Assembly: GCA_018667995.1 (NCBI GenBank)
Contig: JABIQT010000409.1
Span: 1 to 7,969, forward strand
Length of the DNA: 7,969 nt
Direction: 5' to 3'
Source of the DNA: Candidatus Latescibacterota bacterium
GTDB taxonomy: Bacteria > JAAXHH01 > JABIQT01
Part shown: positions 2 to 6,713 of the stretch, piece by piece
Layout of the letters: each line of letters begins with the position of its first letter
Numbering within the stretch: the stretch's first letter is position 1
Program-made: the position numbers and the translations under genes
Notes under the pieces: generated by a model
What the model was told of the DNA's origin: nothing
Database searches by the model: none
What the model saw: the letters and a program-made list of their open reading frames with translations, nothing else

Positions 2-1246
2 GCGGTACCTGGAATGATGGCTGGAATGGGAATGCTCTGGGAGCAGTGGGGTCGACTTCGGTGGGAAGAAATCGCGAGACCTTCACGGGACCTGCTTGAT
101 GATGGATTTCCATACGACATATCCGCATCCAATATAGAGGCGATGGCCCATGTAATTCGGCGTTTTGAGGCGACTGCGAAACATCTAATGCCCGATGGCC
201 GCATTCCACGTCCGGATGATGTCTGGCACCGGCCGGACATGGAGAAGACGCTGGAAAGGCTATCGATACATGGCTGGCGGGACTTCTATACAGGTGATAT
301 TGGACATCGAATAGCTGACTATCTACAGGATAGCGGCGGCATCCTTTCGCGTGAAGATATGGCAGCGTATGAGGCCAGGATTTCGGAGCCTTATGCGATC
401 ACATATAGAAATGCCCACGTCTATGGTCCTGTTCTATCGAACGGTTGTATCTCAAGTTTACAGATACTCAATCTGCTGAATTGCCTTGAGCCGGCCTTGC
501 CGGATACCCTTTTGTGCTGGCACCAACTCGCAGAGGTGCTTAAGCTCGCGTGGCGGGATCGCCTCAAATACGCCGGGGATCCCGATTTCGTCGACGTGCC
601 AGTGGACCGGCTATTAAGCCCAAGTTACGCTATGGGGCGTACTGAAACTTTGCGTCAATTTCCGTGGTCTATCGACCGCTTGATACCGGAAGATCCTGGT
701 GATTCTCACCATGGGACACTTCATGTTTCTGCCGCGGATGTGGACGGTAACGTCGCAGCGGTAACCATTACCCATGGGGCGACTTTCGGATCATGCGTGA
801 CGGTTCCTGGTACGGGAATCATACTCGGCCACGGTATGAGCCGTTTGGATCCGAGGCCCGGTCTTGCCAACTCAGTCGCGCCAGGCAAACGGCCACTCAA
901 TAATGTGGCTCCTATGATCATAAAGTTGCCCGACCGCGATGTAGCTACGGGAGTTCCGGGAGGACGCCGCATCATAAGTGTCGGTGCGCAACTGGCGCGT
1001 AGCATAATAGACTACGGCGCCACATCGTTTGAGGCGGCAGATGCCCCGAGGATGCATGTCCAGACTCAGGAACCTATTGAAGTGACGAACAATCTCGATC
1101 CCGATATCGTGGAGAAATTGCGAGAACTTGGCCATGATATCCAGGTTATGGAAAATGTGGGCTTTGGTGCTCACTGCGCTGAGTTCTTGAAAGATACGAA
1201 GAGCGTAAGGGCCGGAGGAAATACCTGGGCGGCCGCGGTAGATTAA
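2..1246 (+). CDS. Gamma-glutamyltranspeptidase-like Ntn-hydrolase (family T3), 5'-truncated by the window
   Basis: The frame is already open at base 2 and reads AVPGM, the conserved GGT segment before the large-subunit helices. The ATG at 14 is therefore internal and the true start lies upstream. Numbering from that ATG, the self-cleaving, nucleophilic Thr is T235 (bases 716-718) in GTLHVS, followed by DGN and TFG. Later come KRPL (292-295) and the oxyanion-hole PGG (315-317). The predicted small subunit is 176 residues, close to the usual size. Compared from memory with E. coli Ggt, the gamma-glutamyl-binding residues are changed: N411 to G255, Q430 to G274, D433 to R277, and S462/S463 to N296/N297. 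The nucleophile and the glycine pair are kept. I infer an active Ntn amidohydrolase of another specificity; oxamate amidohydrolase shows that family members can act on other amides. No signal peptide can be judged. It is followed after 43 bases by the dehydrogenase gene, probably in one transcript. Confidence 0.92.
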   Translation, partial: AVPGMMAGMGMLWEQWGRLRWEEIARPSRDLLDDGFPYDISASNIEAMAHVIRRFEATAKHLMPDGRIPRPDDVWHRPDMEKTLERLSIHGWRDFYTGDIGHRIADYLQDSGGILSREDMAAYEARISEPYAITYRNAHVYGPVLSNGCISSLQILNLLNCLEPALPDTLLCWHQLAEVLKLAWRDRLKYAGDPDFVDVPVDRLLSPSYAMGRTETLRQFPWSIDRLIPEDPGDSHHGTLHVSAADVDGNVAAVTITHGATFGSCVTVPGTGIILGHGMSRLDPRPGLANSVAPGKRPLNNVAPMIIKLPDRDVATGVPGGRRIISVGAQLARSIIDYGATSFEAADAPRMHVQTQEPIEVTNNLDPDIVEKLRELGHDIQVMENVGFGAHCAEFLKDTKSVRAGGNTWAAAVD

Positions 1247-1289
1247 ACGGACTCATGGTTACATCTGAGATTAAACGAGGAGATGTTAT

Positions 1290-2330
1290 ATGTCGGACGG
1301 TCGTCCCGAGGTCGTCGTACTTTGCCAGAGGAACATACGTGAACAATATATGCAAGATGAGGCCCTGTCGTGTCTCGAGTCATTCGCACAGTGGAGATGG
1401 ATCGACTGTCAGGATGGGCACCTGACAGAAGACGGAGATCTCATAGCCCAGATCAAATCTGCCAATGCCGTGGTGCTTGCCCCGGGGGCGCCTCAGATTT
1501 CAGGTGACATTATGGACCGTGTCTCGGGGCTTGGTTTTATCGGCGATATGGAGGGCGACCGATTCGCGCAGCGTATCGACCTCGATGCCGCCTGGGAGCG
1601 GGGGATACGTACCATTGATACGACCAACGGATCATCCTATCCCGTGTCTGAATGGGCGCTTGCCCTGATCATTATATCACTTCGGAACGCAGGAGCACAT
1701 TTTCGGAATATGATCGCTGGTCGCACACGGAAGACCGGCGACGATCCTGGGTACAAGCATGGTGACCTATATGGTAAGCGGATTGGATTGATCGGTTGCG
1801 GCCACATTGGAAGGCGCCTGATCAAGTTTCTTGAGCCGTTCCGCTGTGAGATCTTTGTTTACGATCCCTATTTACCGCGTGAAATGGCCGATGCCGTTGG
1901 TTTCACACAGACCTCATTGAAGAATGTCATGTCGGGCACTGACGCAATTGTCTGCCTCGCGCCGATTACACGCCGGACGCGTGGCATGATCGGCAAAGAG
2001 GAATTAGACTGGATTCCTGAAGGCGCCATATTCGTGAATGTGTCTCGGGGTGCCGTAGTGGATAGTGTCGCATTGATCGCTCGGCTGGAGCGCGGCGATA
2101 TCGTGGCCGGTTTGGATGTTTTTGATCCAGAACCCGTGCCGGAGGATAGCGAAATACTGAACATGCCCAACGTATTTCTAAGCCCGCACATAGCAGGCGT
2201 TACCGAGGCAAGTTATCCACGGATGTTTACGCTCATGGTCGACGAACTGCAGCGCCACTTCAGTGGCCATGAAACCCTGTTTGACCTCACACCAGGCTCG
2301 TCTGCAAACCGTCGCGGGTTGGATACATAG
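1290..2330 (+). CDS. D-isomer-specific 2-hydroxyacid dehydrogenase, NAD(P)-dependent
   Basis: 346 residues, the usual length for the family, and likely cytosolic. It should interconvert a 2-oxoacid and a D-2-hydroxyacid using NAD(P)H. The nucleotide-binding Rossmann domain sits in the middle, with GxGxxG as GCGHIG at 169-174 and an acidic strand end at YDP (191-193), which favours NAD over NADP. The catalytic residues are visible: R253 in NVSRG, E281 in DVFDPEP and H300 in SPHIAG. The ATG at 1290 is well supported by GAGGAG at 1277-1282, seven bases upstream. It follows the GGT-like gene by 43 bases with no visible terminator between them, so co-transcription is likely. A 12-bp stem-loop begins 20 bases after the stop. 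The substrate cannot be told from sequence: this family includes phosphoglycerate, glyoxylate/hydroxypyruvate and lactate dehydrogenases, and none is specifically indicated. Confidence 0.93.
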   Translation: MSDGRPEVVVLCQRNIREQYMQDEALSCLESFAQWRWIDCQDGHLTEDGDLIAQIKSANAVVLAPGAPQISGDIMDRVSGLGFIGDMEGDRFAQRIDLDAAWERGIRTIDTTNGSSYPVSEWALALIIISLRNAGAHFRNMIAGRTRKTGDDPGYKHGDLYGKRIGLIGCGHIGRRLIKFLEPFRCEIFVYDPYLPREMADAVGFTQTSLKNVMSGTDAIVCLAPITRRTRGMIGKEELDWIPEGAIFVNVSRGAVVDSVALIARLERGDIVAGLDVFDPEPVPEDSEILNMPNVFLSPHIAGVTEASYPRMFTLMVDELQRHFSGHETLFDLTPGSSANRRGLDT

Positions 2331-2349
2331 CCCAAATGTCTGAGGCCGA

Positions 2350-2380
2350 TCAGACGACTGTCGGATAAACAGTCGTCTGA
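2350..2380 (+). terminator. Perfect 12-bp stem-loop after the dehydrogenase gene (terminator-like, no U tract)
   Basis: TCAGACGACTGT (2350-2361) is the exact reverse complement of ACAGTCGTCTGA (2369-2380), with the seven-base loop CGGATAA. It starts 20 bases after the stop codon, the usual place for a terminator or a 3'-end stability hairpin. The bases after the right arm are AGAGCG, with no T run, so it is not a classical intrinsic terminator. A protein operator is the alternative, since the DNA form is a 31-bp dyad. A short competing pairing, TCTGA (2339-2343) with TCAGA (2350-2354), is also possible. Confidence 0.5.
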
Positions 2381-2500
2381 AGAGCGCATCACGCATTGTA
2401 TATGGGCAGTCCTTGTCATCTTTGTAGCGCGTCTGTCTCTGCCCGGCATGTACGATCAGTATTCGTAAGTAATTACGCTTGATTCGTGATTTCATTCCCT

Positions 2501-2506
2501 GAGGAG
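2501..2506 (+). promoter_or_regulatory. Shine-Dalgarno site that fixes the TIM-barrel gene start at 2513
   Basis: GAGGAG lies six bases before the ATG at 2513. An in-frame GTG at 2486 would add nine residues (MISFPEEFS), but the SD site would then be inside the gene and no SD precedes that GTG. The family's first beta strand begins at MKLGLMSG, which also supports 2513. Confidence 0.8.
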
Positions 2507-2512
2507 TTTTCA

Positions 2513-3295
2513 ATGAAGTTAGGATTGATGTCTGGAGACCTGGTTCCTTCGTCGGAACTTCCCACGCTGGGATTTGATGCCGTACAGATGTTCTATGGCG
2601 GGGATGACGAGGACAAGGATCCGTCTCTCGAGTCCATTGACGCGCTGCTTGGACCGGGCAACCTGGCCCTGGCAGCCATGACGCTACACAATGATCTGGT
2701 TGGCGCCGACGGTAAGATAGACAGCGATGTAGACAGAGCTATTCAGTGTGTGGAGAAGACGGCTGCCCTGGCCGGACGGTTTGGCGACAATGAGCGGCCG
2801 ATTCTGGTGTGGCATCCTTCCGGATATCCTGAGGGAGAATTCATCGATGATCATGTGATTTTTGAAGGTCTCTGTGATGCCCTGCGGGCAGTCTGTCGTG
2901 TCGCAGATAGACTCGATGTATCTATTGCCGTGGAGATAACGCGGGCAGGTAGCGTGGGCGGCGCTGAGGCCTTTCTGCGTATCAGGGATCAGGTCACCTC
3001 AGATAGGCTGGGCGTGTGCATTGACGCCGCAAATTTCGCCCCGGACCGTACACCTCTCGAACGGTCTGTCCGCATGTTACGGTCCCACATCGTTATTGCT
3101 CATGCGAAAGATTCGTCCTTTGCAGACAACGGTGAGGTCGCCGAATATGGTCCGGTAGGAACGGGAAAACTCGACTATCCGACCTACATAAAGAGCTTGG
3201 CGAAATACTGCAACGTGCCCTACCTCGTCTTTGAGTACTACAAGTCAAGAGAACAATTGCTCGAGGCCAGAGACATCGTGAAGACATGCCTCTAA
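2513..3295 (+). CDS. Sugar phosphate isomerase/epimerase-like TIM barrel (xylose isomerase-like / AP endonuclease 2 family)
   Basis: 260 residues, normal for a single-domain member. Expected to be a cytosolic, divalent-metal-dependent isomerase or epimerase acting on a sugar, inositol derivative or ketoacid. The likely metal ligands fall at the expected barrel strand ends: E141 in AVEIT, D171 in VCIDAAN, H197 in IAHAKD and E241 in VFEYY. H101 in VWHPSG lies in the substrate pocket region. The GxGxLDY element that closes the barrel is present as GTGKLDY (216-222). In many relatives a His follows the strand-6 Asp; here the segment reads DAANFA, so Asn takes that place. The gene lies 182 bases after the dehydrogenase, behind a stem-loop, and 108 bases before the nitrilase-type gene. 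It may be its own transcript or part of a larger catabolic operon. The exact substrate is not recognisable. Confidence 0.88.
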   Translation: MKLGLMSGDLVPSSELPTLGFDAVQMFYGGDDEDKDPSLESIDALLGPGNLALAAMTLHNDLVGADGKIDSDVDRAIQCVEKTAALAGRFGDNERPILVWHPSGYPEGEFIDDHVIFEGLCDALRAVCRVADRLDVSIAVEITRAGSVGGAEAFLRIRDQVTSDRLGVCIDAANFAPDRTPLERSVRMLRSHIVIAHAKDSSFADNGEVAEYGPVGTGKLDYPTYIKSLAKYCNVPYLVFEYYKSREQLLEARDIVKTCL

Positions 3296-3403: not shown

Positions 3404-4171
3404 ATGAAGTTGAAAGTAGCGGGAGCTCAGATTGCGGTCACAGGTGATATCAATTCGAATGTGGCGGCCATCACGAGGGGGTTGGCCTACGCGGAAGGAG
3501 AGTGCGCGGACATCTTGATTACACCCGAGGGTTCTCTCAGCGGATACAGTCCTGAATTCGATCGTACGGAGGCGGAATCCGCCCTTGAGCACATAACCGC
3601 GCTGGCCGCCAAAAAACGAATCGGGCTTGCCCTGGGCACATGCTACTTCGAGAACGATGACCATTGTTATAACCAGGTGCGGTTCTACGGACCGGATGGA
3701 CAGTATCTCGGGTTCCATAGCAAGACACTGACATGCGGCACTATGACCGCCGTACCCCAGGGCGAGATCAACGACTATGCGGTAACACCTTTACGGACCT
3801 ATCAGTTTGAGGGATGCACCGTGGGTGCCCTCATCTGCAACGACATGTGGGCCAATCCCGCTTGCACACCACAGGATGATTCGCACCTTGCCCATCAACT
3901 TTCCGATATGGGAACACAGGTTCTATTCCATGCAGTAAATGGCGGTCGAGATGGCACCGAGTGGGCGGGATTAATCTGGCAGTTTCACGAATCCAACCTG
4001 CGCATTCGGGCTCGGGCAGGTAACCTCTGGGTGGTAACAGTCGACAGCGCTGAGCCGGTGAATTTGCCCTGCAGCGCTCCTTCAGGTGTGATCAATCCGG
4101 AGGGAGCCTGGGCGTGTCGCGTTCCTGATCAGGGAGAGCAGTTCTTCGCCCACTCCATTGAGATTCCCTGA
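3404..4171 (+). CDS. Carbon-nitrogen hydrolase, nitrilase superfamily (probable amidase)
   Basis: 255 residues, typical for a single-domain nitrilase-fold amidohydrolase in the cytosol. The Glu-Lys-Cys triad is complete: E42 in TPEGSLSGY, K107 in HSKTL and C145 in LICNDMW. The N-terminus (KVAGAQIAVTGD...N) matches the fold's first strand. Members hydrolyse or condense non-peptide C-N bonds: amides, N-carbamoyl compounds and rarely nitriles. The motif after the nucleophile (CNDMW) and the later FHAVNGG and SAPSGV stretches suggest a particular subfamily. I cannot name its substrate, and true nitrile hydrolysis is not indicated. The start is supported by GGAGGA at 3391-3396, seven bases before ATG. 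Its stop (4169-4171) is one base from the ATG of the nucleosidase, so the two are translationally coupled. It may act with the downstream enzymes or simply head their operon. Confidence 0.92.
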   Translation: MKLKVAGAQIAVTGDINSNVAAITRGLAYAEGECADILITPEGSLSGYSPEFDRTEAESALEHITALAAKKRIGLALGTCYFENDDHCYNQVRFYGPDGQYLGFHSKTLTCGTMTAVPQGEINDYAVTPLRTYQFEGCTVGALICNDMWANPACTPQDDSHLAHQLSDMGTQVLFHAVNGGRDGTEWAGLIWQFHESNLRIRARAGNLWVVTVDSAEPVNLPCSAPSGVINPEGAWACRVPDQGEQFFAHSIEIP

Positions 4172-4172
4172 A

Positions 4173-5030
4173 ATGTCTTCTTTTGGCACTTACATTGTCA
4201 CCGCGCTCCAGGCCGAGGCCCGTCCACTGATTTCGCATTTTGGACTCAAGCAAGATACCACATGCCATGCCCTCAGAGTCTATCGGTCAGATCGCATTAC
4301 GCTTGTGGTGAGCGGTACGGGCAAAGTGAAGTCTGCCATAGCGACAACTGGGGTGCTGCAGCCCGTTGCCGAAACTTCGCGGGCGATCGTGCTGAATTTG
4401 GGGATTTCGGGCGCGAGCAATCTGAAAGGCGATCAGGCATGCGAGATCGGTGACGGATTCCTCGTAAATCGACTCTTTGACTATTCCTCGGGCCGTAGCT
4501 ACTATCCGGATATGCTTGCTCGGTGTGAGTGCCCTGAGGCGATGCTCACCACTGTCGATCGACCACTTGATAGCAAAGATGATATCTCTGTGCCAGATGG
4601 TTTGGTCGATATGGAGGGTTCGGGGTTCTTCGAGGCCGCAGCCACATTCTGCGGTCCACATCAGATCGCTCTCTACAAGGTGGTATCGGACTTCCTTCAA
4701 GTCGAGAAATTGGATAAAGAGTGGGTGAGCGACCTCATCTCAGCGCACATTCCCCGATTAGAATCCATCTGCGACTCCTACCAGGCAATCGTTCATGAGG
4801 AATATGACGTGCTTAGCGATGAGGACCGAAACCTTCTCAGGCGTGTTCGCGACAACTTGCGACTGACAGTGTCTCAGTTCAAGATCTTGACGGAATCTGC
4901 CCGATTCTGTAAACTCGAATCCGGAAATCCACTCCCCGACCTTTCCCCCTACTTCACGGTATCGGTTTCCGGAAAACACGAAGGCAAGCAACATTTTGAG
5001 CGAATCAGAGAACGGCTCCTGGCATCGTAA
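4173..5030 (+). CDS. Nucleoside phosphorylase superfamily protein, MTA/SAH nucleosidase-like
   Basis: 285 residues from the chosen ATG. The three MTAN catalytic positions are visible: E15 in TALQAE (water activation), E148 in VDMEG (ribose contact) and D173 in VVSDF (general acid at the adenine). SGTGKV (47-52) and NLGISGA (75-81) are the family's glycine-rich core strands. The expected reaction is cleavage of adenine from 5'-methylthioadenosine, S-adenosylhomocysteine or 5'-deoxyadenosine. The last point matters because the next gene is a radical SAM enzyme, which makes 5'-deoxyadenosine. About 110 residues follow D173, where classical MTANs have only around 35; this extra part looks helical and charged. 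The ATG begins one base after the nitrilase stop with only a weak GAG (4160-4162) upstream, so coupling is likely. An in-frame TTG at 4158 is a poorer start. The 3' end overlaps the radical SAM gene by 35 bases. Other nucleoside phosphorylases or futalosine hydrolase remain alternatives. Confidence 0.85.
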   Translation: MSSFGTYIVTALQAEARPLISHFGLKQDTTCHALRVYRSDRITLVVSGTGKVKSAIATTGVLQPVAETSRAIVLNLGISGASNLKGDQACEIGDGFLVNRLFDYSSGRSYYPDMLARCECPEAMLTTVDRPLDSKDDISVPDGLVDMEGSGFFEAAATFCGPHQIALYKVVSDFLQVEKLDKEWVSDLISAHIPRLESICDSYQAIVHEEYDVLSDEDRNLLRRVRDNLRLTVSQFKILTESARFCKLESGNPLPDLSPYFTVSVSGKHEGKQHFERIRERLLAS

Positions 5031-6027
5031 CTTTTCTCACATTTACGTTGAAGATTCCGCCTATCAGTACCCCATGGCGAAATCGTTGCTGAAACGCTTC
5101 TCACAATCGACGGTGGTATCGGTCGCGAACTATAAATCCATCTTCGCGCGTCCACGACAACATTTTCAAACCCAGAAGCAGAGCTCAAACCTGATACTCG
5201 CTGTGAAAAAGGAGAATCACCTTTATCCAGGTTCCGGCCAGGTTCAGGGTTTCGGACTTGAGAACTTCTTCTACAATACGCTCACGCTCAACTGTGTGTA
5301 CAATTGTGATTATTGCTATCTCCAGGGCATGTATCCGTCTGCCAATCAGGTCGTTTTCGTGAATTCCATCGATTTTCTCGATGCCGCCAGATCGGCCATT
5401 TCTGCTCGAACTAACAAAGCGCAACCGTTGTATCTCTGTATATCATATGACACGGACTTACTCGCATTTGAGAATGTCGTGCCGTATTGTCGCGAGTGGA
5501 TTACATTCGCCTCCGAACAGACTGACCTCCTGCTGGAAATCCGAACCAAAAGCGCGTCCTATCGGAGCATAAGCGACCTACCGGTGACAGACCGTGTTAT
5601 TCTCGCGTGGACATTATCGCCAGAGATTGTGGCTTCGAAATACGAACGTGGGGCTCCACCGGTGCATCGGCGTCTTGAATCTGCCGCTTCAGCTGCCAAG
5701 AAAGGCTGGCCGGTCCGGCTCTGCTTCGATCCCGTGATCACGGTTCCAGATTGGAAATCACATTACCAGAAACTGATTGAGACTACGTTCGATGCCATAC
5801 CTTGCCGATCCGTTAGAGATGCCACAGTAGGGGTATTCCGAATGAACGCGCACTATCTGGACCGGATCCGGAAACAGCGCCAGAATAGCGATATACTGTA
5901 TTCGCGCTATGAGAAGGAGGGAGAGAATGTATCCTACTCCAAGGAGCAACGCCCGGAAATAACGTCGTATATCAGGGATTTACTCACGCGGCATCTCCCT
6001 CCAGAGAGGATTGAAGTATGGACGTAG
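4996..6027 (+). CDS. Radical SAM protein, spore photoproduct lyase (SPL)-like family
   Basis: 343 residues, about the length of B. subtilis SplB. The [4Fe-4S] cluster motif CxxxCxxC is C100, C104, C107 in NCVYNCDYCYLQ, a close match to the SPL form. Flanking family features are LILAVKK (66-72), QGMY (110-113), FVNSIDF (121-127) and the C-terminal VWT. The enzyme should cleave SAM reductively to make a 5'-deoxyadenosyl radical. The region equivalent to SPL's ACTSD hydrogen-donor segment reads CISYDTD (148-154). By my alignment the donor Cys is replaced by Y151, so true photoproduct lyase activity is doubtful. The start is TTG at 4996, with GAAGG (4980-4984) eleven bases upstream. It is the only start codon that keeps the conserved FSHIYVE near the N-terminus; the first ATG at 5074 would remove it. 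The gene overlaps the nucleosidase by 35 bases and the SDR by 10, so expression is probably coupled. Confidence 0.9.
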   Translation: MSESENGSWHRNFSHIYVEDSAYQYPMAKSLLKRFSQSTVVSVANYKSIFARPRQHFQTQKQSSNLILAVKKENHLYPGSGQVQGFGLENFFYNTLTLNCVYNCDYCYLQGMYPSANQVVFVNSIDFLDAARSAISARTNKAQPLYLCISYDTDLLAFENVVPYCREWITFASEQTDLLLEIRTKSASYRSISDLPVTDRVILAWTLSPEIVASKYERGAPPVHRRLESAASAAKKGWPVRLCFDPVITVPDWKSHYQKLIETTFDAIPCRSVRDATVGVFRMNAHYLDRIRKQRQNSDILYSRYEKEGENVSYSKEQRPEITSYIRDLLTRHLPPERIEVWT

Positions 6028-6713
6028 CCATCGTCAGCGGGGCATCGTCAGGCATAGGACTCAGCGTATCGAGAAAACTAGTAGAGATGGGGTACGAAGT
6101 CTACGGCCTCGCGCGAGATTTTGGCCGCACATCATACGAAGATGACGCTTTCCATAAAGTGGTCTGTGACATCACGGAGTCTGTACAGCTGGAAGACAAA
6201 GTGTCGAAATTACTGCGTGAGGCGGGATCGCTAAAGGTTCTCGTAAATAATGCTGGAGTGGGACACTTTGGTCCCCACGAAACGCTCAGTGTCACACAGC
6301 TGGAGCAAATGGTTCGAACGAACCTTCTGGGCCCCATGATGTTGACACGGTTATCCTTGCGGCATCTCAGAGAGTCGTGCGGCTTTGTTATAGATATCTC
6401 CTCCACAGGAGCGCTACAGCCTGGACGGCTTGGGTGTGCCTATACGGCCACAAAGGCCGGGCTTCACCAATTTGGACTCTCCCTATTTGAAGAGGTCCGA
6501 AAAAGTGGTATAAAGGTCGTAACAATCTACCCGGATATGACTCAGACGGATTTCTATAAGTCTGCGGGATTTCGCCCCCACGATGATCCGGACTGCCACC
6601 TTACGCCGGAATGTGTGGCTGATGCTGTGCAGCAGGCGCTTAGCCAGCGTGAGGGCACCGTAGTGACGCAAATTGTACTCAAACCTCAGCGTTTTCAGAT
6701 CGACCGTACCTAG
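6018..6713 (+). CDS. Short-chain dehydrogenase/reductase (classical SDR, NAD(P)-dependent)
   Basis: 231 residues, slightly short for a classical SDR but with every hallmark. The cofactor loop TGxxxGxG appears as SGASSGIG (7-14), with Ser for the first Thr. NNAG is at 77-80, N102 lies in TNLLG, and S129, Y142 and K146 form the catalytic set in DISST and AYTATK. R33 after the second strand (GLARD, 30-34) hints at NADP(H) preference, a weak inference. The start overlaps the end of the radical SAM gene in ATGGACGTAG, and AGAGGA (6005-6010), seven bases upstream and inside that gene, is a good SD. This arrangement implies co-expression at similar levels. It should oxidise or reduce a hydroxyl/keto group, possibly on the substrate or product of the radical SAM enzyme, but SDR sequences rarely reveal the substrate. 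It closes the compact run; the next gene is 324 bases away. Confidence 0.93.
   Translation: MDVAIVSGASSGIGLSVSRKLVEMGYEVYGLARDFGRTSYEDDAFHKVVCDITESVQLEDKVSKLLREAGSLKVLVNNAGVGHFGPHETLSVTQLEQMVRTNLLGPMMLTRLSLRHLRESCGFVIDISSTGALQPGRLGCAYTATKAGLHQFGLSLFEEVRKSGIKVVTIYPDMTQTDFYKSAGFRPHDDPDCHLTPECVADAVQQALSQREGTVVTQIVLKPQRFQIDRT

Follow-up and report, generated by a model that had tools for sequence, protein, structure and literature searches.

A nucleosidase and an SPL-fold radical SAM protein form a conserved overlapping gene pair, frequently joined by an SDR, in distant bacterial phyla

The window analysed here is an entire contig of 7969 bases from a metagenome-assembled genome of Candidatus Latescibacterota (6.06 Mb, 85% complete), and it contains a compact run of four open reading frames (Table 1). 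As the initial annotation described, all four lie on the + strand, and their coordinates bear out a one-base gap (4172) followed by overlaps of 35 bases (4996-5030) and 10 bases (6018-6027). The first gene had been called an amidohydrolase, a loose wording for what Pfam places in the nitrilase superfamily (CN_hydrolase, PF00795, E=4e-12, 46.3 bits against a cut-off of 23.2). The identities given to the other three genes held: the radical SAM protein matches the spore photoproduct lyase (SPL) family (PF20903, E=6e-20) and the SDR matches adh_short (PF00106, E=3e-38), whilst the match of the nucleosidase to PNP_UDP_1 is weak (PF01048, E=0.005), its MTAN/PNP type being confirmed by an AlphaFold model (pLDDT 92.4) whose Foldseek matches are MTANs.

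Table 1. Genes and predicted translation signals of the four-gene run (positions in the window)
Feature	Position	Strand	Remarks
Nitrilase-superfamily carbon-nitrogen hydrolase	3404..4171	+	PF00795; local neighbour, outside the conserved cassette
Nucleosidase, MTAN-fold, adenine-type active site	4173..5030	+	ATG start; in-frame TTG at 4158
Probable Shine-Dalgarno of the radical SAM gene, GAAGG	4980..4984	+	Predicted from sequence; pattern repeated in relatives
SPL-fold radical SAM protein	4996..6027	+	TTG start; CxxxCxxC = C100/C104/C107; Tyr151 at the position of the SPL H-donor Cys
Probable Shine-Dalgarno of the SDR gene, GAGAGGA	6004..6010	+	Inside the radical SAM gene; predicted from sequence
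Classical SDR oxidoreductase	6018..6713	+	GxxxGxG and YxxxK both present

On the same strand before the run, positions 2-3295 encode a truncated gamma-glutamyltranspeptidase, a D-2-hydroxyacid dehydrogenase and a xylose-isomerase-like TIM barrel; these are probably a separate catabolic set, with which the hydrolase at 3404-4171 may belong. At the other end, an open reading frame cut by the contig end (7038-7967) carries CPSCG and CPSC cysteine pairs and has no Pfam match below E 0.009.

A scan of the named genomes with the radical SAM alignment recovered 494 relatives, and the counts out of 80 given below come from the best 80 of these, which are consequently a biased sample. The neighbourhood search that had been proposed as a means of refuting a functional link found the radical SAM homologues mostly in the company of the nucleosidase, which lies within the locus in 77/80 (adjoining the radical SAM gene in 76 and 2.9 kb off in one), and often in that of the SDR (48/80). 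Judging by record titles, the carriers belong to Latescibacterota, Verrucomicrobiota, Lentisphaerota, Balneolota, Marinimicrobia, Bacillota and Leptospiraceae. The laboratory acetogen Clostridium ragsdalei P11 (L113) is one of the carriers of all three genes. In 15 relatives, the nucleosidase, radical SAM and SDR genes follow one another directly; 14 of these relatives belong to one family and share the gene order, whilst the last (G068) is more distant. The hydrolase had been put forward as a possible part of the functional set, a view that does not survive: it adjoins the cassette in the window and in none of the 80 loci besides, nor was it found in the sequence stretches examined around the triad of those 15 relatives.

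In an even draw of Bacillota, the radical SAM gene was present in 10/199 genomes and the nucleosidase adjacent to it in eight of the ten; the SDR was adjacent in one only, the centre genome, which was not randomly drawn. Co-occurrence extends to genomes in which the genes are apart. All five genomes examined whose radical SAM gene is isolated, from Bacillota (two), Leptospiraceae (two) and Verrucomicrobia (one), encode a member of the nucleosidase family elsewhere (E about 1e-82 to 1e-85), at scores far above the ordinary MTAN-type matches of the same genomes, where such were listed. Three of the five also have an SDR homologue elsewhere, strong in both Leptospiraceae (about 1e-91) and weaker in the Verrucomicrobia genome (2e-46), and the genes around these unlinked copies of nucleosidase and SDR offered no functional clue. 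In Fusobacterium vincentii, the nucleosidase and radical SAM protein are encoded in one open frame (L031:6134-8008, on a 2.1 Mb record filed as a plasmid). Pairwise distances correlate between nucleosidase and radical SAM protein (r=0.87, 73 loci) and between radical SAM protein and SDR (0.84, 44 loci), in both cases partly through shared species history or ancestry. Taken together, the nucleosidase, radical SAM protein and SDR form a real cassette, and the functional link originally suggested between the three is strongly supported by this recurrence across phyla, linked or not. The SDR stands as a frequent but optional partner, missing from many genomes: a presence/absence search run with positive controls gave no SDR match at 1e-30 in 12 of the 20 genomes searched, all without a linked copy.

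Several loci depart from the standard layout. Relatives are carried by two unannotated gut 'phage' scaffolds, in one of which (L032:6841-9005) the SDR comes first, followed by a truncated nucleosidase and then the radical SAM gene; no viral contig was confirmed among the cassette carriers. In a Caloramator genome (L088:7121-9647), the radical SAM gene is intact whilst the nucleosidase and SDR flanking it are broken into several frames, as a result of sequencing errors or decay. The SDR motifs GxxxGxG and YxxxK are intact in the window and most relatives, whilst two Opitutales copies (L045:8993-9679 and L058:9619-10314) have neither the glycine motif nor YxxxK and are possibly non-catalytic partners.

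The junction between nucleosidase and radical SAM gene is itself conserved. Their reading frames overlap in 67 of the 75 loci with a linked pair, and the radical SAM gene starts with TTG in 48 of these 67, mostly at -29 or -35. As the overlap recurs across loci, the 35-base TTG overlap of the window is more than chance. The sequence GAAGGNAA, which supplies the codons for the C-terminal EGK motif conserved in the nucleosidase, resembles a Shine-Dalgarno sequence for the radical SAM gene that follows; in the window, the GAAGG of Table 1 lies within these codons, 11 bases upstream of the TTG at 4996. The EG pair occurs in 38/48 TTG overlaps, as against 3/19 other overlaps and 0/8 gapped loci, although starts were chosen by position and Shine-Dalgarno score, a rule that itself favours Shine-Dalgarno candidates and may have miscalled a few. 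This layout points to translational coupling of the two genes. In the loci scanned, the cassette is not directly preceded by a riboswitch, and the few aptamers detected lie in other places.

What kind of radical SAM protein is this? Its AlphaFold model (pLDDT 93.5) superposes over the full length on spore photoproduct lyase (4RH0; TM 0.82, Z 35.6, rmsd 2.3), with the next family at Z 15.7. It shares with SplB (TIGR04070, PDB 4FHC/4RH0) the whole-length fold, the CxxxCxxC motif, whose three cysteines (C100/C104/C107) are invariant in 28 members, and both tyrosines flanking the third of them. It differs in having a shorter hairpin, in occurring in non-spore-forming phyla, and in its hydrogen donor: in a profile alignment, the H-donor cysteine of SPL (ACTSD; Cys140/141) aligns with Tyr151, a tyrosine in 26/28 members. 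A cysteine three residues from the SPL position, Cys148, is kept in 21/28 and could serve as a different H donor. The lesion-binding hairpin of SPL (R304/Y305) falls in a gap of the alignment of the cassette protein. Since the window protein scores 79 bits on TIGR04070 against a cut-off of 400 (relatives 57-100 bits) and has Tyr151 in place of the cysteine, and since six cassette-bearing genomes encode a separate SPL above cut-off as well, sequence and model together identify it as SPL-like in fold but not as an SPL.

The nucleosidase stands in a similar relation to MTAN (MTA/SAH nucleosidase, Pfs). It has the MTAN fold and catalytic set (E15, D146-M147-E148 and D173), with E15, D146, E148 and D173 invariant, but lacks some 35 internal residues, carries a C-terminal helical extension of ~90 residues and, like its relatives in other cassettes, falls far below the family cut-off (20-32 bits where detected, against 73.8 for TIGR01704). 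At the position of Asp173, four clostridial MTANs also have Asp, whereas this genome's futalosine hydrolase (identified by TIGR03664) has Asn, a pattern that, together with known MTAN chemistry, points to an adenine nucleoside as substrate. We also considered the nucleosidase as a futalosine hydrolase (MqnB), an assignment rejected on its TIGR03664 score (37.6 bits, cut-off 124.7) and on its Asp in place of Asn. A separate MTAN above cut-off is present in 9 of 17 cassette genomes, all of Bacillota type. As true SPL and MTAN genes exist separately in several Clostridia, neither cassette protein is simply the housekeeping enzyme; in the window genome and its relatives, no MTAN above cut-off was found, so a general role for the nucleosidase is conceivable there.

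The gene set, overlap, co-occurrence, folds and residues are computed, and from them we infer a reaction, an order of steps and a class of substrate. The radical SAM enzyme would cleave SAM and, in the absence of the cysteine with which SPL returns the hydrogen, would presumably not regenerate it; its reaction would then leave an adenosyl product, which could be 5'-deoxyadenosine or a substrate to which the adenosyl group has been attached. The nucleosidase would strip adenine from this product, and the SDR, where present, could reduce or oxidise the freed sugar or carbonyl. For a nucleosidase acting after a radical SAM step there are precedents in MqnE/MqnB and HpnH/HpnG, although for the logic only: in both, a nucleosidase of the same superfamily takes off the base, yet their radical SAM enzymes belong to other subfamilies, and the comparison serves as a working analogy. 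Because an adenine-type nucleosidase is fixed to a radical SAM protein without the SAM-regenerating cysteine, our best reading is that the nucleosidase frees adenine from an adenosyl product, and we put the chances at about even that the pair is a dedicated, translationally coupled module for this purpose, with the SDR as a frequent third member. As a full MTAN coexists with the cassette, we slightly prefer an adenosylated substrate, formed as in MqnE or HpnH chemistry, over 5'-deoxyadenosine. The fuller pathway that this implies, in which the SPL-fold enzyme would place 5'-deoxyadenosyl onto a substrate, the coupled or fused nucleosidase would remove adenine and the SDR would finish the sugar, is nevertheless rather unlikely when taken as a whole.

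A narrower version of adenine removal is that the nucleosidase merely clears inhibitory 5'-deoxyadenosine, the substrate of the radical SAM enzyme being unrelated and then modified by the SDR. MTAN is established to relieve radical SAM enzymes by splitting 5'-deoxyadenosine, and the initial annotation had given the nucleosidase just such a support role. The kept adenine-site residues make a role on an adenosyl product plausible, and the strict co-occurrence, the fusion and the fact that neither the window genome nor its relatives showed an MTAN above cut-off all accord with disposal. However, nine cassette genomes have a separate full-scoring MTAN that on established knowledge already splits 5'-deoxyadenosine, and the nucleosidase is a dedicated partner that has gained a domain. 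The separate MTAN of several Clostridia makes a more specific substrate at least as likely; we consider pure disposal possible but doubtful. That unrelated enzymes came together here by chance in a local operon is hardly credible for the run as a whole: chance does account for the nitrilase-type hydrolase, but is refuted for the nucleosidase-radical SAM pair, since the three remaining genes are found together in several phyla and accompany one another in genomes where they are not linked.

Could the cassette instead repair DNA, its SPL-fold enzyme reversing or processing a lesion other than the spore photoproduct? Cassette neighbours are mostly varied housekeeping genes. In Opitutae (L052, L061, L070, L111), an O6-methylguanine methyltransferase gene directly precedes the pair, upstream of the nucleosidase, several of these loci also having a HAD hydrolase, and in a Bacillota lineage (L183, L184, L185, L188, L066) the pair adjoins DNA polymerase I, which in L188 lies directly downstream on the same strand. 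We hold a repair function to be unlikely, as the signal from such neighbours is weak, these being few, confined to particular lineages and picked out post hoc, the lesion-binding hairpin of SPL lies in the alignment gap, and reversal of a lesion offers no evident task for an adenine nucleosidase. It does draw on SPL as the closest fold and on the methyltransferase of Opitutae, PolA in thermophilic Bacillota, and MutS, UvdE, UvrD and RecA in single lineages, and other SplB-like proteins have been tied to SOS and repair genes in a comparative study (PMC3765255). Queuosine salvage offers the same logic of a nucleosidase paired with a radical SAM lyase, namely QueK and the queuine lyase QueL (PMC11130926, PMC10723273, PMC11477304). 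Yet the QueL of preQ1-riboswitch queK-qrtT-queL loci is a radical SAM protein of some 230 aa from an unrelated subfamily, QueK is of another nucleosidase family, and both systems coexist in the genome of Clostridium tarantellae; we therefore reject the cassette as the queuosine-salvage set, a very improbable identity. The cassette profiles had no match at the preQ1 riboswitch-queK-qrtT-queL loci at E values up to 10, and no preQ1 riboswitch was found at the cassette loci scanned. Narrowed to three genes, the set is unnamed in the literature searched: our targeted search, with subscription papers mostly outside its scope, found no published description of the nucleosidase, SPL-like protein and SDR together.

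Returning to adenine removal, the cassette may uncover either a dedicated route for the by-product of the radical SAM reaction or adenosylation chemistry of a new kind, and if the latter were true, many bacterial phyla would make a ribosylated metabolite or cofactor that is as yet undescribed. With its conserved coding overlap, the cassette is spread over distant phyla, anaerobes and acetogens included. The partnership also provides a direct handle on a large branch of SPL-like proteins, which databases tend to label as photoproduct lyases.
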